Assembly: GCF_029201545.1 (NCBI RefSeq)
Contig: NZ_CP104007.1
Location: forward strand, 2,452,501-2,516,500
Origin: Devosia sp. FJ2-5-3
GTDB lineage: Bacteria > Pseudomonadota > Alphaproteobacteria > Rhizobiales > Devosiaceae
Length of the DNA stretch: 64,000 nt
Reading direction: 5' to 3'
Positions within the stretch are counted from its first letter, which is position 1; each line of letters begins with the position of its first letter. Under the pieces are notes generated by a model. That model was given only the letters and a program-made list of their open reading frames with translations, searched no databases and was not told where the DNA came from. Position numbers and translations under genes: made by a program. Shown here one piece after another: positions 8,369 through 26,961 of this stretch.

Positions 8369-9063
8369 CTCCTAACGGCGTCATGCACGAAGGAAATCGA
8401 AACCGAAGTCTCGCCGCGCCCAACCGCCTTGATCGGGCCGGTGCCGGAACGCTGGTAGGTGTTGATGCTCGAATGCAGGGCGGCCAGGTATTTGAACGCC
8501 TCTTCCTCGCCCATCAATTGCACCAGCGTAGCGATGACCACATAGGCCGTGCCGGAAGAATTGGGATTGGCCATCTGGATTTCGCCGGCAAATTCGGGCT
8601 TGAGCAGGTCGGCCCAGCACATCGGGGGCTCGACACCCTTGTCGGCCAGCAGTTCGGTGTTGAAGCCGAAGCCGACGGCACCCGAATAGACGCCGACCGA
8701 ACGTCCGCCGGCGGCACCGAATTGCTGGTGGGCCCATTCGTGCAGATTGGCCAGGTTGGGTGATTCATAGACAGCCGTCAGTCCGCCGGCTGCGGCGATC
8801 AGATGCGGGTCGCCAGTACCGCCGAACCACACGTCGCCTTTGGGGTTCTCCGCCTCGGCGCTGATCTGGGCCAGCACTTCGCCCGAGCCCTTCTGACTCA
8901 TGTTCACCTTGACCCCCGTGGCCTTCTCAAATTCGTTGGCCGCCGCTTCGCACCACTCGACCTGAACCGAGCAGTAGACGTTGAGGCTGCCCTCGAGCGC
9001 CATGGTTGGGGTTGCGGCCACGCCCAGCATGCTCAGCGCCGTCAATGCATTGAGTAATTTCAT
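8365..9063 (-). pseudogene. Family-1 extracellular solute-binding protein, C-terminally truncated
   Basis: The first 232 codons of an iron(III)/phosphonate-type family-1 binding protein: signal peptide MKLLNALTALSMLGVAATPTMA, then NVYCSVQVEWCEAAANEF, WFGGTGDPHLIAAA, GAVGFGFNTELL, WADLL and ISFVHDAVRS, where it stops. The family normally runs to about 330-350 residues, so the second half of the C-lobe is missing. The stop falls where the sequence joins unrelated sequence carrying the small membrane gene. No permease or ATPase follows. The gene diverges from a response regulator, a common layout for sensor-linked uptake operons. I read it as the leftover of a deleted ABC operon. Confidence 0.75.
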
Positions 9064-9374
9064 CCATTCCTCCCTGGGTGATGATAAGAGTCGGCTGTCT
9101 TCCTGACCACACCCTCATGGCGCGGTCGGAACTCTGGATCTGGGAGGTTAGACTTCCTCATCTTTGGTCCCCCCACCGGCGCCCTTGCTGGGTCTTTCCG
9201 GATTGATCTTTCGATGCGGGGAATGTGTCGGGGCCAGATGAACCGCTGATTTCAGCTAAAAGCGCTCGACTGTAATATTGTTCACAAAGTTGAGCCGCCG
9301 CCTTGCTATAGTCCTGAGGCGTCTTGCTTGGTCGGCAGGGACCGGACGGACCGACTTCGGAGGGGGGGCCGGCC
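9064..9374. other. Divergent promoter region, solute-binding remnant / response regulator
   Basis: About 310 bases between divergent starts. It probably holds the promoters and the regulator's binding sites. I could not pick out a convincing repeated box. A GGAGGGG-type ribosome-binding site precedes the regulator start. Confidence 0.45.
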
Positions 9375-10091
9375 ATGCAGTTTCGCATTGCTGTTGTCGA
9401 AGACGATCACATCGTCAGTTCGACAGTTGTCGACATATTGCAGACCGCGGGTTTTACAGCCCTGCCCTGCCGCACGGCGGAAGCGCTGCTGTCATTGATG
9501 CGGTCCGGGCCACCACCCGATCTGATCCTGCTCGACCTTCAATTGCCCGATCAAGATGGCATTGCGCTGGCCAGTTCCATCAGGGCCGACAGCAATGTGC
9601 CCATCGTCATGCTCACAGGTCGATCGGGAGAGATCGACCGCATCGTCGGGCTCGAGATCGGGGCTGACGACTATGTGGTCAAGCCATTCAGCAATCTGGA
9701 ATTGCTGGCCCGGGTAAAGGCCATCCTCCGCCGCACGAAGGGCATCATGCCCGCGTCCCGGCAGCGCGAGGGTTTCCGGTTCGAAGGCTTCTTCCTCGAT
9801 CTGGCTGCCCGCCGGCTCGACGCTCCGGATGGCTCGTCGGTGCAACTGACGGTCGCCGAGTTCGAACTGCTCCACGCCCTGTTGCGGGCACGCGGAAGAG
9901 TGCTGACGCGCGATCAGTTGTTGGAAATGACCCACCATGCCGAGGCCGATGTGTTCGATCGCACCATTGACGTGCTGATCCTGCGGCTGCGGCGCAAGAT
10001 AGAACCGGTCCCCAGCCAGCCCCGGTTCATCCGCACTGAGCGCGGCCTGGGCTACACATTTGCCGGCGCGGTCGAGCCTGTTTCCGGCTGA
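9375..10091 (+). CDS. OmpR-family response regulator
   Basis: 238 residues. The receiver domain (residues 1-120) has acidic residues VEDD at 8-11, phospho-acceptor Asp54 in LLDLQLPDQDG, Thr in VMLTGR and Lys in DYVVKPF. A winged-helix DNA-binding domain follows (LTVAEFELLHALL, RVLTRDQLLEMTH, RTIDVLILRLRRKIE, RTERGLGYTF). The start MQFRIAVVEDD at 9375 follows GGAGGGG, so it was preferred to an upstream in-frame start. It converges on the hybrid kinase gene and the two coding regions overlap by 40 bases. It is probably the partner of that kinase and, in the past, regulator of the truncated uptake gene. Confidence 0.92.
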   Translation: MQFRIAVVEDDHIVSSTVVDILQTAGFTALPCRTAEALLSLMRSGPPPDLILLDLQLPDQDGIALASSIRADSNVPIVMLTGRSGEIDRIVGLEIGADDYVVKPFSNLELLARVKAILRRTKGIMPASRQREGFRFEGFFLDLAARRLDAPDGSSVQLTVAEFELLHALLRARGRVLTRDQLLEMTHHAEADVFDRTIDVLILRLRRKIEPVPSQPRFIRTERGLGYTFAGAVEPVSG

Positions 10092-12382
10092 CCGGCTCGG
10101 CCGAGCGCAGCACTGAGCATGCTGGCCAGATCGGCCCGCGAATAGGGCTTCTGCAGAACCGGGATATCGGTCGGATCCGACGCCTGATTGCCGTAGCCGG
10201 TGCAGAGCAGCACCGCCAGATCGGGATGTCTGGTGCGGGCTTCGTGCGCCAGAGACCGCCCGTCACCGCCGCGGTTTAGGACGATGTCGGAGAACAGGAT
10301 ATCGAAATGCCCGCGGCCCAGGGCTTCAAGTGCCGCGTCGACAGAACTGGCGGCAAATGCCTGATATCCCATGCTCTGCACCATATCGATCGTGGTCGTC
10401 CGAAGAAGTTCGTCGTCCTCGACGATCAGTATCCGGCCTGCAGCCGGTACTTTGGCAGGAAGCTTGGCGGGCTTTTTCGGCCGTTTGGCCGGTTTCTTGC
10501 CGGATGACGGCGGCAGTTCAATGCGCACTACCGTCCCCTGACCCTCCACGCTGTCTATGCCAACATGGCCATCGGACTGACGGATGAAGCCAAATACGGT
10601 GGACAGCCCAAGACCGCTGCCGGCACCAAAGGCCTTGGTGGTGAAGAACGGATCAAAGGCCCGCGCCGCAATCTCGGGCGCCATGCCGGAGCCGGTGTCC
10701 CGCACTGACAGTTCGATCTGTCCCGCAGGGCCGCGGCCGGTGGTTAGAGTAATCGTGCCCAGGCCTTTTATGGCGTCACGGGCATTGAAAACCAGGTTGA
10801 GAATGGCGCTTTCCATCTGCCCGGGATCGACCGTGACCGGCGGCAGATCGCGGGCAAGGTCGGTCTGCAGCGTGATGGCAGGGTCAATGCTGAGTTCGAT
10901 GAGATCGATCAGCCCTTCGATCAGCCGGTTGAGGTCCACCGCTTCGGGAAGGAGGGGCTGGCGTCGCGCGAACAACAGCAGCCGCTGGATCATGCCCGTA
11001 CCGCTTTCGACCGCGCCAAGAGCCCTTCGCGCGCGCTGGTGGGTTGGCGACAGAAGCTCAGACTGGTCTTGGATCAATTGCAGATTGCTGCTGACTGCGG
11101 CCAGCAGATTGTTGAAATCATGCGCTATTCCGCCGGTGAGCTGCCCAAGCGCTTCCATCTGCTGGCTCTGGCGCAGCCGCCGCTCCATGTCCCGGCGCTC
11201 GGTGAGGTCGACAAGCGTCACCAATGTATCGCCGCGCGGCATGACGCCCCGGCGCAGTTCGACGATCCGGCCATCGGGAAATTCATGTTCGTGACTGGAG
11301 ACTGATGCCCTGCGCCTATGTCCGCCAAGGATGCCGAGGATAGTTTCTATCTTGAAGTCTGGTGTCATGAGTTCGGGACTGAGCCCGCTCAGGGCCACGA
11401 AGCGGGGATTGGCAGCGACGAGAGCGCCGTCGGCATCAAACAAGGCCACGCCCTCGTCCAGGCCATTGAGAATGCCCAGGCGCATCTGCGCATCGCGCTC
11501 CACCTGCCGAACGAGCGCCGCGCGTTCGAGCGCATTTGCCTTGAACACCTTGAAAGCGCGGGCCAGGTCGCCGATCTCGTCCTGCCGTTCATGGCCGGGC
11601 AACTCTGCGGCGCTGTCGCCGCCGGCCAGCCGGGAGATCGCCTCGGTAGCGCCGACAAGACTAAGCACGATCTCGCGGTTGAGGAATGCTGAAACCATCA
11701 GTCCCGCGGCCAGACTGCCAAGGGCGCCGGCAATCAACGTGACCTTGAAAGCGCCCATCAGCCCGAGCAATTCATTGCCGCGCTGCAGCGCTGCCTGTTC
11801 GACCAGCGCAGATAGCCCCTCGATCATGCTGGTGAGTTGGACGAAAGAGACCTCAACCATGGCCACGGTGGCGCTGGCGCGCCGCTCGATACTCGCAGCC
11901 TCGAGCGCGACGAGGTCGGAATTGCTTCCGGGATTGTCGCGCAGGGCGATGGCCTCGGCGGTAATGTTGAAGAGGCTTTGCGTGGTGGCGTCGATCCGAT
12001 GCACCAGCCGGACAATGGAAGGAACGTCCGACATGCCGAATAGGCCCGTCGATGGCGGACTGGGCAGTGCCGAGGCCAACGCGCCGAAGTCGTCCATCTT
12101 CTTGCCTAATGTCGCCCTTGCCTCGTGCAGTTCGACCATGGTCGGCAGATAGCTTATGCGCGCCGACTCAGCCGCCAGCGCCACGCTACGGCCCACCAGC
12201 GATGTGATCTGGCCGAGATCCGACAGGCTCTGCGCCTGGTGACGCTCCAGCCGGGACTCAGCCACCGAGAGGCCGATCCAGGCGATGACCGCGGCGACCA
12301 GTGTCAGCGACGTGACCAAAGTCAGCGCACGCCGTAGCCTTACCCTGATGCCGCGATGTCGGCGATCCGTCCCCGCGCCCAT
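10052..12382 (-). CDS. Hybrid sensor histidine kinase, TorS-like layout
   Basis: 776 residues from ATG 12382, which has AGGAG just upstream; longer in-frame extensions look non-coding. Order: TM1 about 19-40, a helical periplasmic sensor of about 170 residues, TM2 about 213-233, HAMP about 235-290 (DEIGDLARAFKVFK), PAS about 300-395, HisKA with His421 in GGIAHDFNNLLAAV, an ATPase domain (NLVFNARDAI, DTGSGM, GSGLGLSTVFGF), a Lys/Pro-rich linker (KKPAKRPKKPAKLPAK), and a C-terminal receiver with Asp in ILFSDIVLN. The helical sensor is like those that contact a periplasmic binding protein. It probably signals to the neighbouring OmpR-type regulator. Confidence 0.9.
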   Translation of the reverse strand: MGAGTDRRHRGIRVRLRRALTLVTSLTLVAAVIAWIGLSVAESRLERHQAQSLSDLGQITSLVGRSVALAAESARISYLPTMVELHEARATLGKKMDDFGALASALPSPPSTGLFGMSDVPSIVRLVHRIDATTQSLFNITAEAIALRDNPGSNSDLVALEAASIERRASATVAMVEVSFVQLTSMIEGLSALVEQAALQRGNELLGLMGAFKVTLIAGALGSLAAGLMVSAFLNREIVLSLVGATEAISRLAGGDSAAELPGHERQDEIGDLARAFKVFKANALERAALVRQVERDAQMRLGILNGLDEGVALFDADGALVAANPRFVALSGLSPELMTPDFKIETILGILGGHRRRASVSSHEHEFPDGRIVELRRGVMPRGDTLVTLVDLTERRDMERRLRQSQQMEALGQLTGGIAHDFNNLLAAVSSNLQLIQDQSELLSPTHQRARRALGAVESGTGMIQRLLLFARRQPLLPEAVDLNRLIEGLIDLIELSIDPAITLQTDLARDLPPVTVDPGQMESAILNLVFNARDAIKGLGTITLTTGRGPAGQIELSVRDTGSGMAPEIAARAFDPFFTTKAFGAGSGLGLSTVFGFIRQSDGHVGIDSVEGQGTVVRIELPPSSGKKPAKRPKKPAKLPAKVPAAGRILIVEDDELLRTTTIDMVQSMGYQAFAASSVDAALEALGRGHFDILFSDIVLNRGGDGRSLAHEARTRHPDLAVLLCTGYGNQASDPTDIPVLQKPYSRADLASMLSAALGRAGQPETGSTAPANV

Positions 12383-13224
12383 AGCTGCTCCTGCTGCCCC
12401 AAAGAAGCTATCGACGGCCGCAGACCTCCGCAATCCATATACAGCCGCGCCGGTCCCCCCGAGCAACGCGGCTGGCCCTCTTCCTGACGCCGCCTCATCC
12501 AAGGCAAACTTGCTTGCAGTCTTGAGTAGCCATAGATCAGCCGCCAGAACTGCGGCAGAGCTGCGAACAAATACTAGTGCCACGATGGAAAGCTGCCCTC
12601 TCACGACCCAGGCCGACTAACACTATCGAGGCACGTTTTGGAAGTTGCTACGCATTTTGATTTATATCCGAGCGAAAAATTTCGTGCTCGTCTAGCTAGA
12701 TTGTTGCGTAACCTTGGGAATCTGGATGTTGCATCCATCATTCCTCACTATTTGTACGACAATCTGTACGCCGACCAAAGAATGGTTCGGACGAGATGGC
12801 TTCTCTGGTCGCCCCACTTATTACGGGTTAGCGTTAGGCCGCGTACAACACTGGCGATCGCCGTGAGCTCGGTATCGAGCGCGTCATTAGGCCCGGTTCA
12901 CCTAAGCTCGTCATAGTCGAAGCCGAAATGGATGCCGACGATATTCTAGCCGAAACAGGTCTGCTGATAGACGTAGGTCAGCAAGAGCTGGTCCAGGTGT
13001 ACACAAGTTCGGCAGCCTACAAGTTCCGAACTCCTGGTTAGTGCGAAGCGTCCCTTTGTGAGCCCAGCCAACAGGGCAACGATCGTTACCAGGTATCACT
13101 GACGAGGCGAGGCGCCAGTGACGCCTTGCCACGAACATGGAGGCCGCTGCTCACGCCAACCTTGAATAGCTTCGACCGGCGGCAGAAGCCCATTGCAATA
13201 ACGTGCCCACTTCGTGAGGCGTCG
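12383..13224. other. Long gene-poor stretch upstream of the giant genes
   Basis: About 840 bases without a supportable gene. The part around 12620-12720 is visibly more AT-rich than its surroundings (TTTGATTTATATCC, CGAAAAATTTCGTG). A short frame at about 12912-13040 (VIVEAEMDADDILAETGLL) vaguely resembles the start of a receiver domain but ends without further motifs. The region may be a junction between unrelated segments. It should contain the promoter of the giant two-gene unit. Confidence 0.45.
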
Positions 13225-16200
13225 ATGGCGGCAAACACTCTACTGGAAATGGTGATCGCCCGTTTCGGGATCGACATCGATGGCGATTCCGATGGCGGCC
13301 AGGTTCTGGACAGCTTGCTGTCGGCAGCGGACTTGGGCGATGGGCTGCGCGGCAGTGCTACGGTTAGGGAACTCACTTTAGCGCTTGGCCCCAAGGGGCT
13401 GAGCGTGCATGCGGCGGGAGCCAGCGACGCCCTGGTCCTCATGCCTCCCGAAACCCCTTGGGCTTTCGAAATCAAACCGCCACCCACTCCGGGTGGAGCG
13501 CTGTTGGTGCAGATCGAACTCGTGGCCCCCCGTTTTCGAGTGCCTTTCCTTCGGCCGGCGTTGCTCACTGCGGACCAGACACTCGAAGAAGGGCTGGCCG
13601 GGCCCGTCCAACTGGTGTTTCCGAGCCTCTTGCTGGTGGTCAGCGTCGGGAGCGGCAATCCCGACGCCACGGCTGAAATAACGCCGTCGCACGGTGTGGG
13701 CGGAGCCCTGGAACTCACGGTCGAGCCCCCTTATGTGCTGTTCGGCGCCGGTGCGGTGCTCGGCTTCCATTTGCCGGTTGCACAACTACTGCTCGAACCA
13801 CAGATCCAGATCCGCTTCCCACAATTGGAAGTGTTTGTAGCGCCACCATCCATGCCGGCACTGGCTATGCATGGGGGAGCCACCGATCTGATAATCGCGA
13901 CGGACGGAGCCGGGTTATCGGGGAATTTTCATATCGCCGCGGCCTCTGGTGCAATGGCGCCCAAGCGGCCACGCTTCCTGCACAATGTGGCGGCACGGCT
14001 GCGGATGGACCGCAGCGTGGTCAACCTGCTTGAAGTGAGCGGGCAGGTAGAGCTGTCCGCTGAAATTGGCCAGTGGCTGGGCGGTGATATCTCCGCGGCA
14101 GGCCCGACGAAGGTCGACTATCGGCTGACCCTGACAGTGGAGGCTACGAGCTGGAACACCACGCTCCACCTGGGGGCGAGCGGCGGGCAGGATTTCCTCT
14201 GGCGATCGCGGACCGGCACCGCCCATGAGCACGATTTGAAGCGGGACACGCTGGGCGCCTACACGGTGTTTGCGCCGCTGCTCGACCCCACCCTTCCCGA
14301 CACGGGCAGCAGCGGACTTGTCGAGCTGGCGCTGGATGCCGGGCTGGCTGGCGGCATCGCGCGCAGCAACTGGATCACCACGCAATCGGTCACGGTGTAC
14401 GGAGCGGAGCTTGCCTTTGCGAGCGGGCCCGACCAGAGCCTCGCCAGCCTGTTTTTCGAAACTGAGACCGAGGTGAACCTCGACGTGCAGGTGGGCGGAT
14501 CCCCGCTTTTGTGGACACGACGCCCAATCCGCGTGCGGCAGAAGGCGGTGGGGCTGAAGCTGGATTTCGGAGGGGGTGGCGGGCCTCCCAAGCTGTCGCC
14601 CGTGTTCGATCCCGGACAGGGGTTCAGCCTTGATCTCAGCGATCCCGGCACATTCGAAATTCCGGGTCCGCTGGGTGAATTCCTGCAGCCGGATGCCGCC
14701 CGCGTGGCGCGCGACAATCCACTGGTCTTCGAGGTGGACCTCGTCACCAAATTGGACCTCGGCGTTGTGAAAATCGACAAGGCTAGCCTGCGCGTACCGC
14801 TGATGGGCGACATGGTGCCCACCCTGACGGGGCTGGGCGCCAATCTCGACCTGGGCCTGATCAGCGGCGGGGGATATCTGCGCGTGCGCCCGCAGGCGAT
14901 ATCGGGCGGGTTCGACCTCTCCGTGGGCGATCCGCTGGGCGTTCGTGTGCAGGCCGACCTGGATATCGAGACGGGCGCGGCGGTCTCGCTGCTGCTCAAC
15001 CTGGAGGTTGAATGGCCGGTGCCCATCCCGCTGCTCAATTCGGGCTTCGGCCTGTTCGGCATATTGGGGCTGCTTGGGGTCAACCGCCGCCGGGACATGC
15101 GTGAGAGCAAGACAGCACTGGACTGGCTGGTACGTGCAGAAGGCAAGCCCAGACGTGGTAAGTGGACGAGCGAACTCGACGCATGGAGCTTTGGCGTGGG
15201 GGCCGTAATCGGGACGCTGGAGGGCGGCTTCCTGTTGCATGCAAGGGGCATGCTGATGATCGAGCTGCCGGGACCGCGCATTCTGCTGCTGATGAAGGCG
15301 GACATGCTCAGTCTGAGGCCAGGGACCCAGGACGAGGGCGACGACATGGGCACGCTCACAGCGGTCATCGAGATCACCGGGCAATCCATCACTCTGGGCA
15401 TCATCGCCGACTACTCAATGCCATTCCTGCTCGACGTTCAGGTGCCCGCCGAGGCTCTCTTCAATTTCAAAGACCTAAGCGACTGGCATTTCGACCTGGG
15501 GTCGGTCATCGAAGATCGCTATGTGTCCATCCGCTTCATGAGCACCATCAGGGCCGACGGCTATCTGATGTTCCATGGCAAAGGGATAGTCAAAAAGCCT
15601 TTGCTAGACCTGCCGGGCATGGCCGTGGCGGCGGGGGTGCGGGCAGCCCTGACCTGGGGACCCGAGGAGATCGGCCTGTATATCCGCGTCACGGTCGAAG
15701 CCAATATCGGCATCAGTTTCAACCCCATGATGCTGGTGGGGCAGTTTTCCCTGGAGGGCGAACTGCACCTGTTCATCGTCAGCATCGGTGCCAGCGCGTT
15801 GGCACAGGTGCGGATCAGCGACGACACTTTCTATGTTCGCGCAGCCATTTCCGGTTCGGTCGATTTCTTCTTCTTCGAGCTGAGCGCTACGGTCACCCTG
15901 GAGCTTGGCACGAAGCCGGCCCCGCCCGAGGCGGGTTCGCTGTTCCGGGCGTTATCGCTGCATGCCCGCAGCCATGCGCTTCTGCCCGGATCGGGGGCCA
16001 CCAGCAGTATCGACGGAAGCCTGGGCACGGCGCTGGCCGAGGGTGTCGAAGGCGCCCTGCCCGTGGTGGCGATCGACGCCATTCCCGTGCTGCAACTGGA
16101 AATGCCCGCCGTCGTCGCCAAAGGCACCACCTTTTCGGGCGTCGCAATCAACAGCCTTTTGCCTCAAGGCGGCCACGTGCAGCGCGGCGAACGCCTGTAT

Positions 16201-18417
16201 TCCTATGTGCTCACAGGTGTCAGCCTCGAGGCGACCGGACATGCCAACCCGTTGCAGGAAGGCGACGTCACGGTGACATGGTGGGATAGCCGCAACCTAA
16301 GCGACCCGGGCAATGACGAAGCGGTGCAATTGGCCCTGCTCTCGGCGGTGCCCACGCCCACGCCCAGCGCCGCCCTGCGCAGCGAGACCCATACCGAACA
16401 AATTCGCCGCCGGTGGGGGGAGGTCTGTGCCGAGGTCGCCCCGCCCACGGGTGTGCTGTGGACCTTTGCCGGGCAGGCGGCGCGCACGTCGTCGACCGGT
16501 TGGACGCTGCAGGGCCAGCCCATGCTGGCCCCCCCGGGCACCCTGCGCTCCGAACCCCCGCCGACCGAACTCAGGGTCACCGAGTGCTGGCGCAGCCACG
16601 GAGCGGCGGACAGCCTGGTCGACGTATTGCCGGCACGCATTGTGGCGGCCACGGGACTGGCCGGCCGGCTGCTGCTGGCACCAAAGACGGGCGCCACGCT
16701 GCAGCCGCGTCCGCAGCGGGCCGACTCGGGCTTCGAGCGCTTGGTGGCGCAGGTCGAATTCATCGAGCTGGAGGGACTGGCCGATGGCATCAGGCTGGAT
16801 GCCGGCGGGCTGCGTCACGTGCGTGGCCTCGTGGTCGTGCCCTGGGAAAGCGGGCGTCTGGTGCTGCGCCGGCGCGATACGGACGGCAACCGCATGGACG
16901 CCGACGATATCGATCTGGCGGCGCATTGGCGGCCGATCGGCAAGATCAACGACCTGCCCGCCGACTGGCAGAATGCGCAATCAGGCTGGCAGGACCTCAC
17001 CCAGGCGGCCCTCGACGCGTGGTTCGGCAGTTTCGCCGGACCGTTGATGGAAGCGCCGCTCTTCCTGTTCGATATAGAGGGGCTGGACGGGGCGGTAACG
17101 ATCGAGATCGGGCGCGTGGAGGTGCCGGACTGGCAGGCATCGCGCTGGGGCCTGCTAGCGGTCGAGGTACTGACTGAGGCCGAATTCAAGCGCCACAACT
17201 TTGACACCCAGCGGCGCGACGAGACCATCGCGGTGATAGACGGCATGCTGACGGGTGTCGATGGCGCCCGCGCCCTGTTGCATCCCCGAGCCGATTATAG
17301 GCTTTCGACCACCTACACGGTGGCGGTTGCCGATCTCGACGAGTCCGGCGCCTTCGTCTGGGGCGCCCCCCAGGAGAGGCATCAGACGTTCCTGTTCCGC
17401 ACCGATGCGCTTCCGCCCCAACACCTGGAAACTCTGGTTATGGCGACCATGCCCATGGCCGATGAACAGGCGGTGTTCTACCGGGATCCGGTCACGGTGG
17501 TATTTTCCACCGCCGAAACGCGCAAGCTCTTCCAAAGTTACGGACGGCCATTGGTGGTGCGTACCCGTGCAGCGTCGGGCCGGCACCCGGTTGCAACGGA
17601 CGGGTTCGACCCCGCGGACATGGCGATTTCGGGGCTGCTGACCCCGCCACGCGCCCTGCCCTATCTTGCCCTGACGCCCTTCGAGGCGGCGCTGGAAGAG
17701 GTGCTGGCCGACCAGCCATGCGTCAATTTCTCCCACCGCAGCGCGCGGCATGAGGCCGTTACGGTCAAGCTGGCCTTCGAGAAGGACACCAATTACGTCT
17801 TCGAGCTCGACACCGAGCCGCCCCGCGAGGACGCCAATGAGCCGATGTTGCGTCGCAATTTCAGCACCTCGCACTATCCCGACGCCGAGGCTTTCGCCCA
17901 CGATATTGGCGCCAAGGCAGCCCGCCATCGCTATTGCGGGGCGACGGCCGCATTGGCCGCCTTGCCGCCCGTGCTCAGCGACCTTGCCTTCGAACGCATG
18001 CTACGCGAGATCGGCTGGGGCGACCTGGCTCGGCCGAAAAAGCCGCTGCTGACGGTGATCTGGACAGGTCCTGCCGGCACCCCTTCCCAACCGGTAGCCG
18101 CGCTGGTGGAAACCACAGAGCCGCATTGGCGCAGCCGGCTGGTGCCCCAGGTGACACCCAATGGATTGGGCACCCTTTCAAGCCTGCCCTGGCTGGAACT
18201 GGAACAACAGGCCGGCGGCTCGATCGTGACGGGCCTGTCTCGCTGCGCCGATGGCTCTCGCACAATGGTCCTCCTGCGAGAGCAGGCCCGCGGCCAGGAG
18301 CTGAGCCTATGCCTGCGGCGCATCCGCCACCCCGTGTTCGATGCCGACGAGCCGACAACGACGCATGTGATCGCGCCGGTGCTACTGAGTGCGCCAGCAT
18401 GGGAGGCGACATCTTGA
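13225..18417 (+). CDS. Giant uncharacterised beta-rich protein (about 1730 aa), possibly DUF6603-related
   Basis: Start ATG 13225 has TGAGG at good spacing and gives MAANTLLEMVIARFGIDIDG. There is no signal peptide or clear membrane anchor. Residues about 60-900 are runs of alternating polar and hydrophobic residues, that is, consecutive amphipathic beta-strands (for example VTVEANIGISF, GELHLFIVSIGAS, VDFFFFELSATVTLEL). Glycine-rich loops such as GGGGGPPKLSPVFDPGQGF separate them. Residues about 900-1730 are linkers and Ig-like or beta-sandwich-like stretches with few cysteines. The layout around FKDLSDWHFDLG and ADGYLMFHGKG reminds me of DUF6603 proteins, which are large and have no known function; an HMM search is needed. 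It is coupled to the next gene. No enzyme motif is visible, so a structural or lipid-binding role is as likely as any. Confidence 0.75.
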   Translation: MAANTLLEMVIARFGIDIDGDSDGGQVLDSLLSAADLGDGLRGSATVRELTLALGPKGLSVHAAGASDALVLMPPETPWAFEIKPPPTPGGALLVQIELVAPRFRVPFLRPALLTADQTLEEGLAGPVQLVFPSLLLVVSVGSGNPDATAEITPSHGVGGALELTVEPPYVLFGAGAVLGFHLPVAQLLLEPQIQIRFPQLEVFVAPPSMPALAMHGGATDLIIATDGAGLSGNFHIAAASGAMAPKRPRFLHNVAARLRMDRSVVNLLEVSGQVELSAEIGQWLGGDISAAGPTKVDYRLTLTVEATSWNTTLHLGASGGQDFLWRSRTGTAHEHDLKRDTLGAYTVFAPLLDPTLPDTGSSGLVELALDAGLAGGIARSNWITTQSVTVYGAELAFASGPDQSLASLFFETETEVNLDVQVGGSPLLWTRRPIRVRQKAVGLKLDFGGGGGPPKLSPVFDPGQGFSLDLSDPGTFEIPGPLGEFLQPDAARVARDNPLVFEVDLVTKLDLGVVKIDKASLRVPLMGDMVPTLTGLGANLDLGLISGGGYLRVRPQAISGGFDLSVGDPLGVRVQADLDIETGAAVSLLLNLEVEWPVPIPLLNSGFGLFGILGLLGVNRRRDMRESKTALDWLVRAEGKPRRGKWTSELDAWSFGVGAVIGTLEGGFLLHARGMLMIELPGPRILLLMKADMLSLRPGTQDEGDDMGTLTAVIEITGQSITLGIIADYSMPFLLDVQVPAEALFNFKDLSDWHFDLGSVIEDRYVSIRFMSTIRADGYLMFHGKGIVKKPLLDLPGMAVAAGVRAALTWGPEEIGLYIRVTVEANIGISFNPMMLVGQFSLEGELHLFIVSIGASALAQVRISDDTFYVRAAISGSVDFFFFELSATVTLELGTKPAPPEAGSLFRALSLHARSHALLPGSGATSSIDGSLGTALAEGVEGALPVVAIDAIPVLQLEMPAVVAKGTTFSGVAINSLLPQGGHVQRGERLYSYVLTGVSLEATGHANPLQEGDVTVTWWDSRNLSDPGNDEAVQLALLSAVPTPTPSAALRSETHTEQIRRRWGEVCAEVAPPTGVLWTFAGQAARTSSTGWTLQGQPMLAPPGTLRSEPPPTELRVTECWRSHGAADSLVDVLPARIVAATGLAGRLLLAPKTGATLQPRPQRADSGFERLVAQVEFIELEGLADGIRLDAGGLRHVRGLVVVPWESGRLVLRRRDTDGNRMDADDIDLAAHWRPIGKINDLPADWQNAQSGWQDLTQAALDAWFGSFAGPLMEAPLFLFDIEGLDGAVTIEIGRVEVPDWQASRWGLLAVEVLTEAEFKRHNFDTQRRDETIAVIDGMLTGVDGARALLHPRADYRLSTTYTVAVADLDESGAFVWGAPQERHQTFLFRTDALPPQHLETLVMATMPMADEQAVFYRDPVTVVFSTAETRKLFQSYGRPLVVRTRAASGRHPVATDGFDPADMAISGLLTPPRALPYLALTPFEAALEEVLADQPCVNFSHRSARHEAVTVKLAFEKDTNYVFELDTEPPREDANEPMLRRNFSTSHYPDAEAFAHDIGAKAARHRYCGATAALAALPPVLSDLAFERMLREIGWGDLARPKKPLLTVIWTGPAGTPSQPVAALVETTEPHWRSRLVPQVTPNGLGTLSSLPWLELEQQAGGSIVTGLSRCADGSRTMVLLREQARGQELSLCLRRIRHPVFDADEPTTTHVIAPVLLSAPAWEATS

Positions 18418-21400
18418 GCAGGGTCATCAATGACGGGCCCAATGGCTGGCTCAACCTGCGCGCGGCCCGCCTGTTCTGGCGCGAGGAAGAGGGCCAGCGC
18501 GATCCGGAGGCCGGCAATGCCGAGCGCAACGCGACGCAATTGCGGTGGATGACCAATCCCTGCCAGGGCCTCGACCGGCAAGTATTCACCGTGTGGCGGG
18601 CGCCGCAGCCCGAGCCAACGATGACCAAGGTGGACGCCGCCAACGACCTCGACTGGGAACCGATCGAATTTGTTGGCCTGCCCGTCGACGACAGATGGGC
18701 CAATACCCGCTACCCACTGGACCTGCAGGGGCCAGTCAACGCTCCCGTCTCCCCCTGGGACGCGGCCCTGATGCGCCTCAGCGCCAATGCACCGCCATCG
18801 GGCTGGATGGCGGATGCCGAGCTACCGGCCTGGGAGGAACCACGACCGGACGCTTACCTGAAGAGCCTGGTTGAGGGACGGATTCTGAACGGCATTCGCT
18901 CCATGCTGGAGGCCGATCCGCCGCCGAAACATTTCAACTATTCAGAGACTTACGAGGACAATCTACAAAGCCAGTTGATGCCGAAACTCCTGCTCAATGG
19001 CGTTGTCGCCGAGCTGGAGGGCGACCGGCCCGCCAGCGGCACGTGGCATCCCTACCGCGTGATGTGCATGAGTGCCTCGGCCGATCCACTGGCGGCGCTG
19101 GCCTTCGGTTTCGGGACCGGATTCAACGACGACAACGAATGCATCTACATGGTGACGGTGTTGCGCCGTGACGAGCAGACGGGCGCGGAGATGGAACTGG
19201 CCGACGTGGTTCGCCCAACACGGCTATCGACGCACCTGCCGCCGCCCGCTGGACTGAGCGTCACCCGCTCCGGGTTCACCCGACCGCAGGTCACCGACGG
19301 CCCGTCGATGGATTCGGTGCGTATTGCCTGGGACCGGGCCATTTCCCCCGAAACCACCCCCTGGTTTAACGAGGAGGCGCCGCAGCCCGTCGCCTACGCT
19401 ATCGGTCGGGTGGGACCGACGATCGGCTGGCGCAAGCTGTTGCTGACGCGGCGGGAGGCGGATGTGCGCGGCTGGCTCTCCTATGTGCCATCGGCCGCCT
19501 CGGGGGACATCAAGTCCGCGTTCCAGGACCATATCTTGCGCGAAAGCTTCATCGTACCGGAGGAGCCGTTTGCCGATCCAGTCGGCGCGGCCTTCACTTA
19601 CTATGTCGCCGCACAGGACCTTTATGGGCGCTGGAGCCTGTGGAACCAGGTCGACTACACGACCGATACGGAGACCGCGCGCGCACCTGAACTGGTGTCG
19701 TTCACTCAAAGTGATGACGGCGCCATCCAGGTGGTTTTCAGCTGGGATTGGTCGGATCGCAGTCCGGCCTTCATGCAGGTCAACGTGAGCTGGGCCGACG
19801 ACCCGGACACCATACTGGCCAGCCGCCGGCTTGACTTCAACGGCGCGTCAACGCCCGAGCCGGCCGGCGATGATATCGCCGCCCTGTCGCACGCGCTGAA
19901 GCCTGTGAGCTGGGGCGACGGCCAGGACAAGCGGCCGGGCGATCCCGGAACGCGGTTCTACAGCTGGACCGTGCCAGTGGTCGAGACGTTCGGACCGGGG
20001 CAGAGCAAGCGCGTCCTGCAGGCCTGGGCATTTGGCCAGAAGCAGATTCATCACATGCGTTTCGCCGACTGGATGATCAGCCCGCCGGGCCCACCGCGCC
20101 AGCTCGAACTCTACAACAGCCGCACACCCGGGACCCCGGCCATCGACCCTGTCGAGGCGCCGCTTTGGGCCAGCCTGCCGGACAGCATGGGGATCAGCCA
20201 TTTCGATCTCAATTGGCATGCGGTCGAGGACGTCGCCGGATATCATGTCTATGAGGCCACGGAGACGGCGCTGCTGAGCGCGCTGAACCTGTCCGGACCG
20301 GATATTGCCCAGCCCCTGACCGAGCGTTTGCGCCTGTTGCGCGGCCGGGAGATCCAGAACCATCGGACCAGCTTCCGGCGCATTACGACCACGCCGCTGG
20401 CCGAGCCGCGCATGACCGTTCACCTGCCGCGGGGGTCGAGGGTCATGCACTTTTTCGCTATCACCGCGGAAACTGAAAATCATATGGCGTCGCACTGGCC
20501 GGCACAGAGCGATCAATTCGCCGCCGTCGCGGTGCCGCGTCTGGATATTCCTGAGCCGCCGTCCCTGTCGGTGTCGCTGATGGAAGGGGCCGTGCAACAG
20601 GCCAGGATTAGGGTTGAGTTGGCCACGGGTGGCGCCGGGCGCGTCGAGCTCTTTCGCGTCCGCAGTGTTTCGGCGGCAGCCGATATCGACAGCATGGGTC
20701 CAGTTCTGCAGGCGACGAATGCGGTGGATGGGATAGCCGAGTTCGTTGACGGCGCGATCGCGCCCGACTGGAGCCCCTATTACTACCGGGCGCAGGTCTG
20801 GTCTCAGCGGGATGACCAGCGTGGCATTGTGGAGGCTCGCTCGTCCTCCTCGCCCATGGTGTCTGTGCTGGTGCCCCCGCCGCCGCTGGCCGCACCAAGC
20901 GATCTTGTCGGCAACCAGGCGTTTTCGGTGGCCACTGCGTCACTTGTCAGTTGGCGGACGGAGGCGCCCAGGCGGAACACGCCGCTGGGACCCTTCAAGA
21001 CGGTGCTCGAGATACGCGATAGTGACGCGACCGTGAGACGCTTGCGACTGGTTCAGGGCTTGCCCGACATCCCCGTATTGGACACTGCCGCGCTGCCGGA
21101 ACCGGGGCTAGCGGGAGCGCCAACGATCTTCCAGCTCTCCTGGGGCGGCTCCAATCAGTATTTCGCCTGGGTCGAGCGCGATGCCGGTGCATCCTTCCAC
21201 ATGACGGCCAGAACTATCGATCCAAGGGGGATGATCGCCAGCGCAACGCTCGAGGTGCCGCCGCTTGCGCCAGATGCGGAATTCGTGACCGTGCCGGCCT
21301 GGAGCACCAAGGAAGAGGTCGAACAGGGCGACGATATGGGTGCCGTCATCTTCAGTGCCGAGAGCCTGGGATTGCGGGTAACGATGATATTCGACCAGGA

Positions 21401-21509
21401 ACGGCCGGGATTTTTCAACGAGCAGGTGATTTCCATTTCCCCACCTCCCGGCAGCGTCGTGACGGCGGGGAGCCAGGTTACAGTAGTGATTAACCTGTCC
21501 CAACGCTGA
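18414..21509 (+). CDS. Giant uncharacterised protein with FN3-like segments and a C-terminal PASTA-like domain
   Basis: About 1031 residues. The TTG at 18414 overlaps the previous stop (TTGA) and has GGGAGG 7 bases upstream. An ATG at 18399 is in frame but lacks a ribosome-binding site. The N-terminal half is rich in Trp, Pro and Asp (WREEEGQRDPEAGNAERNAT, DNLQSQLMPKLLLNG). Then come FN3-like sandwiches (ISHFDLNWHAVEDVAGYHVY; WSPYYYRAQVWSQRDD). The last 75 residues follow the PASTA pattern: VTVPAW, a helix with AESLGLRV, then VISISPPPGSVVTAGSQVTV. PASTA domains usually bind peptidoglycan or act as spacers outside the cell, yet I see no signal peptide. It likely works together with the upstream giant protein; function unknown. 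Confidence 0.75.
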   Translation: MSRVINDGPNGWLNLRAARLFWREEEGQRDPEAGNAERNATQLRWMTNPCQGLDRQVFTVWRAPQPEPTMTKVDAANDLDWEPIEFVGLPVDDRWANTRYPLDLQGPVNAPVSPWDAALMRLSANAPPSGWMADAELPAWEEPRPDAYLKSLVEGRILNGIRSMLEADPPPKHFNYSETYEDNLQSQLMPKLLLNGVVAELEGDRPASGTWHPYRVMCMSASADPLAALAFGFGTGFNDDNECIYMVTVLRRDEQTGAEMELADVVRPTRLSTHLPPPAGLSVTRSGFTRPQVTDGPSMDSVRIAWDRAISPETTPWFNEEAPQPVAYAIGRVGPTIGWRKLLLTRREADVRGWLSYVPSAASGDIKSAFQDHILRESFIVPEEPFADPVGAAFTYYVAAQDLYGRWSLWNQVDYTTDTETARAPELVSFTQSDDGAIQVVFSWDWSDRSPAFMQVNVSWADDPDTILASRRLDFNGASTPEPAGDDIAALSHALKPVSWGDGQDKRPGDPGTRFYSWTVPVVETFGPGQSKRVLQAWAFGQKQIHHMRFADWMISPPGPPRQLELYNSRTPGTPAIDPVEAPLWASLPDSMGISHFDLNWHAVEDVAGYHVYEATETALLSALNLSGPDIAQPLTERLRLLRGREIQNHRTSFRRITTTPLAEPRMTVHLPRGSRVMHFFAITAETENHMASHWPAQSDQFAAVAVPRLDIPEPPSLSVSLMEGAVQQARIRVELATGGAGRVELFRVRSVSAAADIDSMGPVLQATNAVDGIAEFVDGAIAPDWSPYYYRAQVWSQRDDQRGIVEARSSSSPMVSVLVPPPPLAAPSDLVGNQAFSVATASLVSWRTEAPRRNTPLGPFKTVLEIRDSDATVRRLRLVQGLPDIPVLDTAALPEPGLAGAPTIFQLSWGGSNQYFAWVERDAGASFHMTARTIDPRGMIASATLEVPPLAPDAEFVTVPAWSTKEEVEQGDDMGAVIFSAESLGLRVTMIFDQERPGFFNEQVISISPPPGSVVTAGSQVTVVINLSQR

Positions 21510-21672
21510 AGCACGGCCCGCCACCGCAACGCGTTCCCGCGCGGCTTCCCCTCTTTAAGCCGTTGGCGGCATGAACCAGATACCGTCATATCCCAGTCGA
21601 TCCATCCGCGATCAGAGATCGAGCCCGTGCCGGCGGTCGAGTTGCTTTGACCCTCTTGTTAAGCCCGCAATG

Positions 21673-22464
21673 TCAATTCTCGTCAGAGAGCTCCTGCGTC
21701 TCGCGGACCGAGTTGGCAGTATGGATCAGCAGGTCGGGGACGGTTTCCCCGTCCACCAGCACATCGCCGACAAAACGCGCGACACTCTCGGCATCATGGA
21801 GGCGGTACCACTCTCCGCGGGGATAGACGGCGACCATCGGGCCCTGATTACACGGATAGAGACAGCCCGTGCGAGCAGTGAGGCATCTGTCAGAGATGCC
21901 CTGCCGCGCGATTTCGCCTTTCAACTGCAAGAGCAGCGAAGCGGCGTCGCGGAAATGACATCGAGCCCCCGTGCACACCAGCAAGTGATGTGTGAAATCG
22001 GGAGGATTTTGCCAGCCAGGCTTACCCAATGCCGGCTTGGCCTGTGACGCCGGTCGAGCATTTTTGGCACTCGCTTCGACGATGCCGACCAGAGCGCTCA
22101 CGCCAGCTGCAGATGCAGCGACGTCGTCTCCGATCGACACGGTCGCCCCTTCGGGAGCGTCATGCTTTTGCCAATGCGACAGTGCGCCGGAGAGCCAGAC
22201 CGAAAGCGCCTCGGACCATGGCAAGCCAAGCGGTTGCACGAGGATCTTGAGGTGTCCGGCCTCACAAAGCTCCAGCATGGCCTCTGGCAGGCTCTGACCT
22301 TCGCCGTCGATACGGATGAGTGCCGACGCGCAGGTCGTTGCTGATGCGGTATCGGCACGAAGTTGAGCGAGTTTTCGTTTGCTCAGGCTCTGAGCGGAAA
22401 TGACGTATAGAATGGCATCAGGTGACACGAAGCTGGCATTCCCCAAGTGGGGACGCAAAGACAT
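21673..22464 (-). CDS. 2Fe-2S thioredoxin-like ferredoxin domain protein, B12-riboswitch controlled
   Basis: 263 residues. The C-terminal half is a thioredoxin-like 2Fe-2S ferredoxin: LLVCTGARCHFRDAA supplies two cysteines, and TARTGCLYPCNQGPMVAVYP supplies the other two, followed by the usual GEWYRLHDAESVARFV end. The N-terminal half (ILYVISAQSLSKRKLAQL, LPEAMLELCEAGHLKILVQPLG) resembles proteins that bind or handle tetrapyrroles or cobalt, but I cannot name it. A cobalamin riboswitch lies 80 bases upstream, tying it to B12 supply. A hairpin (GCGAA/TTCGC, 22475-22487) just ahead of the ATG could be the switching element. It probably takes part in cobalamin synthesis or cobalt reduction; inference. 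Confidence 0.8.
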   Translation of the reverse strand: MSLRPHLGNASFVSPDAILYVISAQSLSKRKLAQLRADTASATTCASALIRIDGEGQSLPEAMLELCEAGHLKILVQPLGLPWSEALSVWLSGALSHWQKHDAPEGATVSIGDDVAASAAGVSALVGIVEASAKNARPASQAKPALGKPGWQNPPDFTHHLLVCTGARCHFRDAASLLLQLKGEIARQGISDRCLTARTGCLYPCNQGPMVAVYPRGEWYRLHDAESVARFVGDVLVDGETVPDLLIHTANSVRETQELSDEN

Positions 22465-22543
22465 ATCGATGTCTGCGAAACGTTCGCATGGTCATGTCTG
22501 GCCCCTACCGGAACACCTCGTCCGACTTCATGGTATCTCGCTT

Positions 22544-22690
22544 TGGCAGGTCTCCTGGCTGACGGCTCAAACGCGATAGCAGCCTTCCCACCCTGAGGCA
22601 GTGGCATGTGCGATCGCTCGCCGCTTACAGTTGCGAGGGCAGCCACGGGATCGGCCCCTGATGGGTAATCCTCACCGTGTTCCCTTTTAA
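22544..22690 (-). promoter_or_regulatory. Cobalamin (AdoCbl) riboswitch before the ferredoxin gene
   Basis: Read on the minus strand, the element begins AAGGGAACACGGTGAGG and continues with GCAACTGTAAGCGG, GCCACTG, GGTGGGAAGGC and AGCCAGGAGACCTGCC. These are the conserved blocks of the cobalamin riboswitch in the right order, including the B12 box. It ends 80 bases before the ferredoxin ATG. Cobalamin binding is expected to switch this gene off. Confidence 0.93.
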
Positions 22691-22786
22691 TCCGCGCTCA
22701 ATCTGGCGGAACCGAAGCATGAGTTAGATGGCATGTTGAGCATGATGGCGCAAGCAGCGAGAGCAGCGCCATCATGCGGAGCGGCA

Positions 22787-25931
<3,145 letters not shown>

Positions 25932-25944
<13 letters not shown>

Positions 25945-26330
25945 AACCGTTCGAGTCCTTCTTTGACAGTGGCGACATCCTCATCGGTTCCGAGCAGTTC
26001 GAAACGATAGAGGAGAGGCACGGAGCATTTCTGCGCGACGACAGTGCCGGCCCGGCAGAAATCTGCGCCGAAATTGGTATTGCCCGCCGCGATGACGCCG
26101 CGGATCAGGCTGCGATTGGCTTCCACATTGAGGAAGCGGATGACCGGCTTGGGCACGGCTCCCTTGCCGCCATTGCCGCCATAGCTTGGCAACAGCAACA
26201 CGAAGGGTTCGCTCACCAGAGGCGGCTCACTTGCCGCATCCACCGGCAGGCGCAGGCCGGCAAGGCCCAGCTTTTGAAAGAAGCGATGGGTAGTGCCGGA
26301 TGTGCTTGAATAGTAGACGAGGATGCCCAC
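25932..26330 (-). CDS. nrdI: Flavodoxin-like NrdI
   Basis: 132 residues. NrdI is the FMN protein that supplies the oxidant for assembling the manganese-tyrosyl radical of NrdF. The phosphate-binding loop [12 protein letters not shown], the 50s-type loop [20 protein letters not shown] and [12 protein letters not shown] are characteristic. It begins with GTG (VGILVYYSS) preceded by GAGG. It lies 12 bases after nrdH and overlaps nrdE. Confidence 0.95.
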
Positions 26331-26342
26331 CGGCCGCCTCGA

Positions 26343-26564
26343 TCAGCTCAAGGCGCCGATCATGTCAGGGCGAAATCCGGCCCAGTGCCGCTCACCGGCG
26401 ACAACGACCGGCACCTGGCGATAACCCAGGCCTTCGACCAGGGCATAGGCGTCGGCATCCTGGGAAATGTCCACAAGCGTGTAAGCGATCCCCTTACGGT
26501 CGAGAGCGCGGGTCGTGGCAGTGCACTGGACACAGGCGGGCTTGCTGTAAACGGTAATGGGCAT
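26343..26564 (-). CDS. nrdH: NrdH redoxin
   Basis: 73 residues, glutaredoxin-like in sequence with thioredoxin-like function, the electron donor to NrdE. The active site is KPACVQCTATTRAL (CxxC), and the C-terminal block WAGFRPDMIGAL is the NrdH signature. The start at 26564 has GAGGAA at good spacing; an upstream in-frame ATG at 26654 would reach into the riboswitch leader. It is the first gene of the nrdHIEF operon. Confidence 0.95.
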   Translation of the reverse strand: MPITVYSKPACVQCTATTRALDRKGIAYTLVDISQDADAYALVEGLGYRQVPVVVAGERHWAGFRPDMIGALS

Positions 26565-26606
26565 CGAATTTTCCTCGGCAAACAAATCTGATGGCGAGGC
26601 AAAGCA

Positions 26607-26634: not shown

Positions 26635-26679
26635 TCGTTCGCCTGACCGGGCACCCCGCCGGTGGACGTATCTGTTCGA

Positions 26680-26835
26680 GGCAGGTCTCCTGGCTTGCGG
26701 GTCGCGATTCTATCCCGGCCTTCCCAGGTCGCGGACCCAGTGGCACAAAAAAGGAGAAGAACTCACCGCTTACAGTTGCGGGGGCAGCTTCGGCATTGTT
26801 GAGACACAGGGCCTCAACGCACCGAATTCCCATCT
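26680..26835 (-). promoter_or_regulatory. Cobalamin (AdoCbl) riboswitch before nrdHIEF
   Basis: Minus-strand blocks in order: GGGAATTCGGTGCG, GCAACTGTAAGCGG, GCCACTGGG, CTGGGAAGGCC and AAGCCAGGAGACCTGCC, the consensus of the cobalamin riboswitch. It ends about 115 bases before nrdH. It implies that the B12-independent reductase is repressed when cobalamin is plentiful, presumably because a B12-dependent class II reductase exists elsewhere. A hairpin (CCTCCGAG/CTCGGAGG) lies at its 5' side. Confidence 0.95.
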
Positions 26836-26961
26836 TAGCCTCCGAGCAGCCTCGGAGGAACCTTGAACACTACATATAGTAGAGGATGCCACCTTCGTGT
26901 CAATATGAAGGTCTGATCGCAGTGCGGATTTGGTTCTTGCGAAATTCGAGTGCCCGGAAAA

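Follow-up and report, generated by a model that had tools for sequence, protein, structure and literature searches.

In the available text of PMC12419007, the belt of ApoB-100 wraps a lipid core with its hydrophobic face, and in that of PMC11014939 a groove of the bacterial proteins TamB and YhdP shields phospholipid tails. Here we describe W1 and W2, two giant adjacent genes in a stretch of 64,000 nucleotides of the Devosia sp. FJ2-5-3 genome (hereafter the window), and compare them with these and other described systems. Searches of W1 and W2 against Pfam, NCBIfam, PHROGs, PADLOC and PDB sequences gave a PASTA domain in W2 and otherwise nothing or matches at chance level, and no characterised system was matched by either protein. 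We found no open-access literature on DUF6603, PF20248, WP_020952543, WP_013436793 or WP_235091495, and among the titles listed on giant genes and fibronectin III none concerned the pair. The initial annotation, which was made from the letters alone, saw no described system of such a composition, and no described system accounting for the pair was found here.

W1 (13225..18417, + strand) is an open frame of 1730 amino acid residues from the ATG at 13225 to the TGA at 18417, and W2 (18414..21509, + strand) is an open frame of 1031 residues. The two genes share the sequence TTGA (18414..18417, + strand), in which the start of W2 overlaps the stop of W1, so that the two giant genes of 1730 and 1031 codons with a 4-base overlap were confirmed as first annotated. 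The TTG at 18414 is the likely start of W2, and a likely ribosome-binding site, GGGAGG (18401..18406, + strand), lies seven bases before it; with the ATG at 18399 as an alternative start, W2 would overlap W1 by 19 bases. The start of W1 agrees with those of the relatives L005 and L011, whose proteins open with a similar MA..LL stretch. From their overlap, W1 and W2 are probably carried on one transcript. In the region 12600-22800, promoter-like sites numbered 0, against 1.5 in shuffled sequences, and terminator-like sites were not in excess (6 against 6.5 by chance). The GC3 of both genes (78%) resembles that of the nearby nrdB, nrdA and histidine kinase genes (72-83%). By hydropathy, neither protein has a hydrophobic N-terminal segment.

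To find relatives, we scanned a collection of species genomes with patterns from the core profile of W1, which gave 215 candidate stretches, 54 of them encoding a relative, each at a separate locus. For the partner, we used a W2 profile that grew by iteration from 27 to 44 members. It detected a W2 relative on the downstream side, and in the same orientation as the W1-like gene, at 52 of these loci; at the other two (L030 and L052) the contig ends inside the W1-like gene. With the window, L005 and L006 counted and starts chosen mechanically, the partner starts between -19 and +30 bases from the W1-like stop in 53 of 55 loci, the exceptions being L042 and L063, where the W1-like gene is fragmented. 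Adjacency holds in every relative long enough to tell, these two broken-gene loci aside. In L042 (Methylobacillus glycogenes), both the W1-like and the W2-like genes are spread over several frames, through decay or sequencing error, and the copies in L013 (M. gramineus) are open.

Genomes of 36 of the 54 loci were then considered whole, using the W2 profile and the W1-core profile (E 1e-10; coordinates compared by eye). All 36, which had been chosen for having W1, carried a single copy of each gene, the two being neighbours on the same contig, although only up to 20 candidates were scored per genome, so that weak paralogues may be missed. Four extra W2 rows were pieces of the same genes: three lie on the same contig (G800, G831 and G832), and the fourth, on another contig of G835, complements a gene cut by the contig end. 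No lone W2 was found in 60 genomes of the same genus or order, which with the plasmid set described below were the places searched beyond the W1-bearing genomes. Pairwise distances among the W1-like and among the W2-like proteins were correlated with r = 0.987 (n = 51 of 60 loci, leaving out L030, L052, L042, L064, L063 and L061, which are cut or broken, and L007-L009, where no partner was detected), and none of 2000 permutations reached this value (highest, 0.201). Shared organismal descent adds to this correlation, yet the tree of the family mixes phyla. The homologues were thus found together and not, as the initial annotation had allowed, singly and unlinked: W1-W2 is a conserved module, single-copy, adjacent and diverging in step. 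The pair is real, and its support exceeds what could be seen from the letters.

The 54 loci cover Pseudomonadota, Actinomycetota, Bacteroidota, Acidobacteriota, Gemmatimonadota and Myxococcota, the phyla being taken from submitters' names and several entries being metagenome bins. In a quick tree with long branches flagged, Frankia and Streptomyces grouped with Mesorhizobium, one Demequina fell among Paracoccus, Roseococcus and Sphingomonas, and an Anaeromyxobacter (a metagenome bin) grouped with Sphingobium. The simplest reading of this phylum-mixing tree would be that the module was passed horizontally as a unit. A tblastn search of plasmids gave seven records from four genera, Mycetohabitans (4), Rhizobium, Paracoccus and Azospirillum. 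A W2 relative directly follows the W1-like gene on Rhizobium tropici pRtrCIAT899c and Paracoccus pAMI4. For Mycetohabitans, the second and third genes had profile support of 80% and 96% (hhalign), and for Azospirillum (L009) the second gene had weak support (56%) and the third gene none. Long forms of W1, e.g., that of Rhizobium, have insertions of 131, 24, 34 and 195 residues between W1 residues 224 and 243, which are absent from W1 itself and from L011.

Many relatives have a third gene after the W2-like gene, a component which was invisible to the initial annotation. It was detected in at least 22 of the 54 loci, some of which end early, and also in L005, and encodes a protein of about 1030-1130 residues where complete. 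None of the 20 third proteins scanned, among 23, matched Pfam, and a PDB profile search gave no row, but the C-terminal part has a relative in Mycetohabitans, a protein in which Pfam recognises PLD domains. On the Mycetohabitans megaplasmid (L007, 11759-13288), a PLD protein lies between the W2-like and W1-like genes and matches the Pfam PLD active-site motif, unlike the degenerate third genes of other loci. When 20 of the 23 third proteins were aligned, four rows ended before the HxK(x)4D motif; in all 16 copies reaching it, the D is kept (by eye), while the H is replaced by R, E, N, D, A or M and the K by T, S, N, Q or A. Since the H and K are replaced in every copy read, these third proteins look catalytically dead, and binding seems likelier than cleavage. 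No third gene adjoins W2 in the window, and none was found elsewhere in the window genome with a query that gave partial matches, away from the pair, in two of five other genomes (Kribbella and Frankia).

The giant size of the genes, the PLD-like third gene, the patchy and phylum-mixing distribution and the plasmid copies would also suit a contact-dependent or encapsulating weapon, in which W1 forms a shell round a cargo, W2 aims it and the PLD-like protein is the payload of the relatives. We regard this as rather improbable. The supposed payload went undetected in 32 of 54 loci (some cut short), and in the 16 copies read its catalytic H and K are replaced; PADLOC and NCBIfam gave no match to W1 or W2, and the one PHROGs row was at chance level (E 0.12). 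Nor did the surroundings of the relatives reveal a conserved neighbour beyond the module: the widest neighbour cluster occurs in 8 of 60 loci and consists, by eye, of ordinary ABC proteins, and the clusters found in 4-6 loci are ordinary genes, an SDR-like one among them (by eye), or trace to genomes that are close relatives of one another. This survey hardly covers the downstream side, where loci with a third gene end soon after it. Upstream, nine large frames in six loci were ordinary genes or had no match. The one in L017 matches none of the profiles of the module and is probably non-coding.

In the window, the pair is flanked by genes on the opposite strand: upstream a hybrid histidine kinase (10052-12604), and downstream a gene whose weak match to a ferredoxin-like Pfam family stays under the cut-off (21673-22464), as well as nrdB (22787-23761) and nrdA (23776-25944), assigned by eye to ribonucleotide reductase. 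Two cobalamin riboswitches on the - strand (Rfam RF00174), one at 26663-26880 (130.7 bits) upstream of the nrdA/nrdB-like genes and one at 22528-22731 (117.4 bits) upstream of the gene at 21673-22464, suggest that the ribonucleotide reductase beside the pair is under B12 control. W1 is single-copy in its own genome (4.19 Mb, one contig). W2 had no match in 60 genomes (36 of the same genus and 24 of the same order), a W1 search of 384 other genomes of the same class gave two matches, both weak and partial, and the W1 core profile had no match in 397 other genomes of the same phylum. The block 22786-26566 is common to five same-genus relatives (five examined of six strong matches), and the region 1-22785, the pair included, was not found at that place in any of the five. 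Because nothing to the left of the block is shared with these relatives, the pair sits in a variable region; as to a lateral origin within the genus, no insertion borders were found.

Phage tails often include giant genes rich in beta-structure, which speaks for a phage structural gene pair or a prophage remnant. Neither protein matched a characterised system, W1 had no match in phage records, and four IMG/VR scans gave no relative. In addition, no phage family was detected among ten window frames scanned, and the fold search returned no convincing viral fold (three hits with E <=0.001 and TM <=0.12). The phage reading is thus largely refuted, and we give it hardly any probability.

The best conserved part of W1 (residues 501-914; 14725..15966, + strand) is predicted from the AlphaFold2 model, hydropathy and fold matches to be an amphipathic antiparallel beta-meander of about 24 strands. 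The pLDDT is mostly 70-95 over this core; the whole model has a mean pLDDT of 69.6 and a pTM of 0.42, residues 1141-1730 lying outside it. The core strands have a mean hydropathy of 2.49 on one face against -0.78 on the other, and three of the 24 (608-623, 647-664 and 907-914) differ little between faces. The hydrophobic face of the core is conserved. Hydropathy alternates over residues 1-1000 (autocorrelation at lags 1-4 of -0.16, +0.15, -0.15 and +0.09) and shows no alternation over residues 1001-1730; the initial description of W1 as a very long run of amphipathic beta-strands is therefore true of the first 1000 residues or so only. An internal segment from residue 124 has a mean hydropathy of 1.87, more than is commonly taken to indicate a membrane helix, and is predicted as strands.

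In the fold search with this model, the nearest solved structures were the lipid belt of ApoB-100 and outer-membrane barrels. Among the 50 matches listed, the TM-score did not exceed 0.30 and the structures of TamB, YhdP and VPS13 were absent; the VIA rmsd was 5-11 Å for all matches but one (45.6 Å). With such low TM-scores and high rmsd, what the matches have in common is an amphipathic meander and not one and the same fold. As predicted, the fold of W1 suggests a lipid-related role of the pair, a theme with which the PLD-fold companion of the relatives is in keeping. The matches to barrels also raise the alternative that the W1 sheet closes into a beta-barrel in the outer membrane or a target membrane, the pair then forming an assembly at the surface or a pore, for whose export no classical signal is used. 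This appears unlikely, for the rmsd to barrels is mostly 7-10 Å over 211-304 residues, and W1 lacks a hydrophobic N-terminus, as do, by eye, nine relatives (whose starts are uncertain). Moreover, of the 48 tree entries that carry a phylum name, 21 belong to the Actinomycetota, a group most of whose members have no outer membrane of the usual kind.

By its predicted fold, W2 consists of fibronectin-III-like domains arranged in a chain, and it ends in a PASTA domain. The best-matched of these domains (residues 711-822; 20544..20879, + strand) fits the FN3 domain of EpoR, as a predicted fold, with 2.2 Å over 99 residues, the fold search scarcely covering the N-terminal part of W2. The Pfam FN3 models gave no match to W2, and a PDB profile search gave one row (E 0.02). 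The sandwich domains seen in the initial annotation are thus supported by the predicted fold as fibronectin-III-like, and the PASTA domain (residues 975-1027; 21336..21494, + strand; Pfam PF03793, E 1.2e-5, 25.6 bits against a cut-off of 23.2) had been overlooked. PASTA domains are mostly located outside the cytoplasm. Among the open frames of the loci examined, only W2 and its closest relative, in L011, have a PASTA-like C-terminus, and this end of W2 therefore looks like a recent addition. An array of fibronectin-III-like domains with a PASTA domain would also be at home in a structural scaffold or matrix, in which the hydrophobic face of W1 is buried against itself or against W2 and no lipid is bound; such a face would be conserved as a buried core. 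We give this alternative a small but appreciable probability.

The guess of the initial annotation that the pair is related to DUF6603 (PF20248) proved right at the level of a superfamily, and W1 itself is not matched by PF20248. Twelve genomes or records behind the relatives were scanned, three of which had a gene passing the cut-off of 27 bits. Two of the passing genes are W1-like, that of L019 with 40.6 bits and that of L036 with 35.2 bits; the matches lie inside the W1-like core, and the proteins are about 30% identical to W1; it is through these two that the guess holds. The W1-like gene of L058 stays below the cut-off (20 bits), those of L007, L009, L011, L012, L015, L041, L046 and L053 have no match, and in the L062 genome another gene only is matched. 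A Frankia genome (L076) that has the W1-W2 module also encodes a separate DUF6603 protein (8424-11342, a 972-residue frame, 353 bits), next to which no W2-like gene was found in a partial set of open frames. The W1 profile did not align significantly with this protein (hhalign probability 0.4%, E 0.15), and profiles of the W1 family scored it at -1.2 to 2.3 bits, so that the kinship comes solely from the PF20248 matches in L019 and L036. Through such intermediates, W1 would be a divergent relative of DUF6603 and not a member of the Pfam family.

We tentatively favour, as a possible reading built on the predicted fold, that W1-W2 is a complex, spread by horizontal transfer, in which the giant sheet binds a lipid, a membrane or some other hydrophobic ligand. 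W1 and W2 would be two subunits of one probably cytosolic complex, made together from a two-gene module, or from three genes in many relatives. The core of W1 is predicted to be a giant antiparallel beta-sheet, hydrophobic on one face and charged on the other; the hydrophobic face would lie on lipid, be it a membrane surface, a lipid body or acyl chains, in the manner of the ApoB-100 belt or the hydrophobic grooves of TamB and YhdP. The fibronectin-III-like chain of W2 may attach to W1 and connect the latter with a target, and the third, PLD-fold protein of the relatives may recognise phospholipid. Against this reading count the low TM-scores, the mean pLDDT and pTM of the W1 model, the three strands that differ little between faces, the hydrophobic segment from residue 124, the lack of a third gene beside the window pair and the PASTA domain of W2. 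A giant pair of about 8 kb that stays together, in single copy, in six phyla and is nevertheless seldom met in the whole genomes sampled must do its work as a unit; should W1 bind lipid, bacteria would possess a kind of apolipoprotein belt that is not exported.

Compared with the described systems, W1 recalls the ApoB-100 beta-belt in its predicted amphipathic meander (4-9% identity, rmsd 11 Å in the best row) and differs from it in being bacterial, in having no hydrophobic N-terminus and in having a constant partner. With TamB and YhdP, of the AsmA-superfamily and bridge-like lipid transfer proteins, it has in common a giant bacterial beta-protein with a hydrophobic face, as these are presented in the available text of PMC11014939; it differs in having no Pfam match and no N-terminal anchor seen. 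The outer-membrane barrels LptD, MtrB, PapC and the OprD family differ in that W1 shows no signal peptide by hydropathy, that its family occurs also in Actinomycetota and that the rmsd is high. W2 shares the EpoR fit with fibronectin III arrays and is without their Pfam FN3 match, and the cut-off of Pfam DUF6603 is passed by two W1-like genes, those of L019 and L036, whereas W1 is unmatched and the Frankia protein showed no W2-like neighbour in the partial set of open frames. Set beside these systems, the pair might be an undescribed lipid machine, doubtful as this still is, with an unexported ApoB-like sheet never without its fibronectin-III-like partner, an ancestral pseudo-phospholipase-D lipid reader and horizontal spread between phyla.
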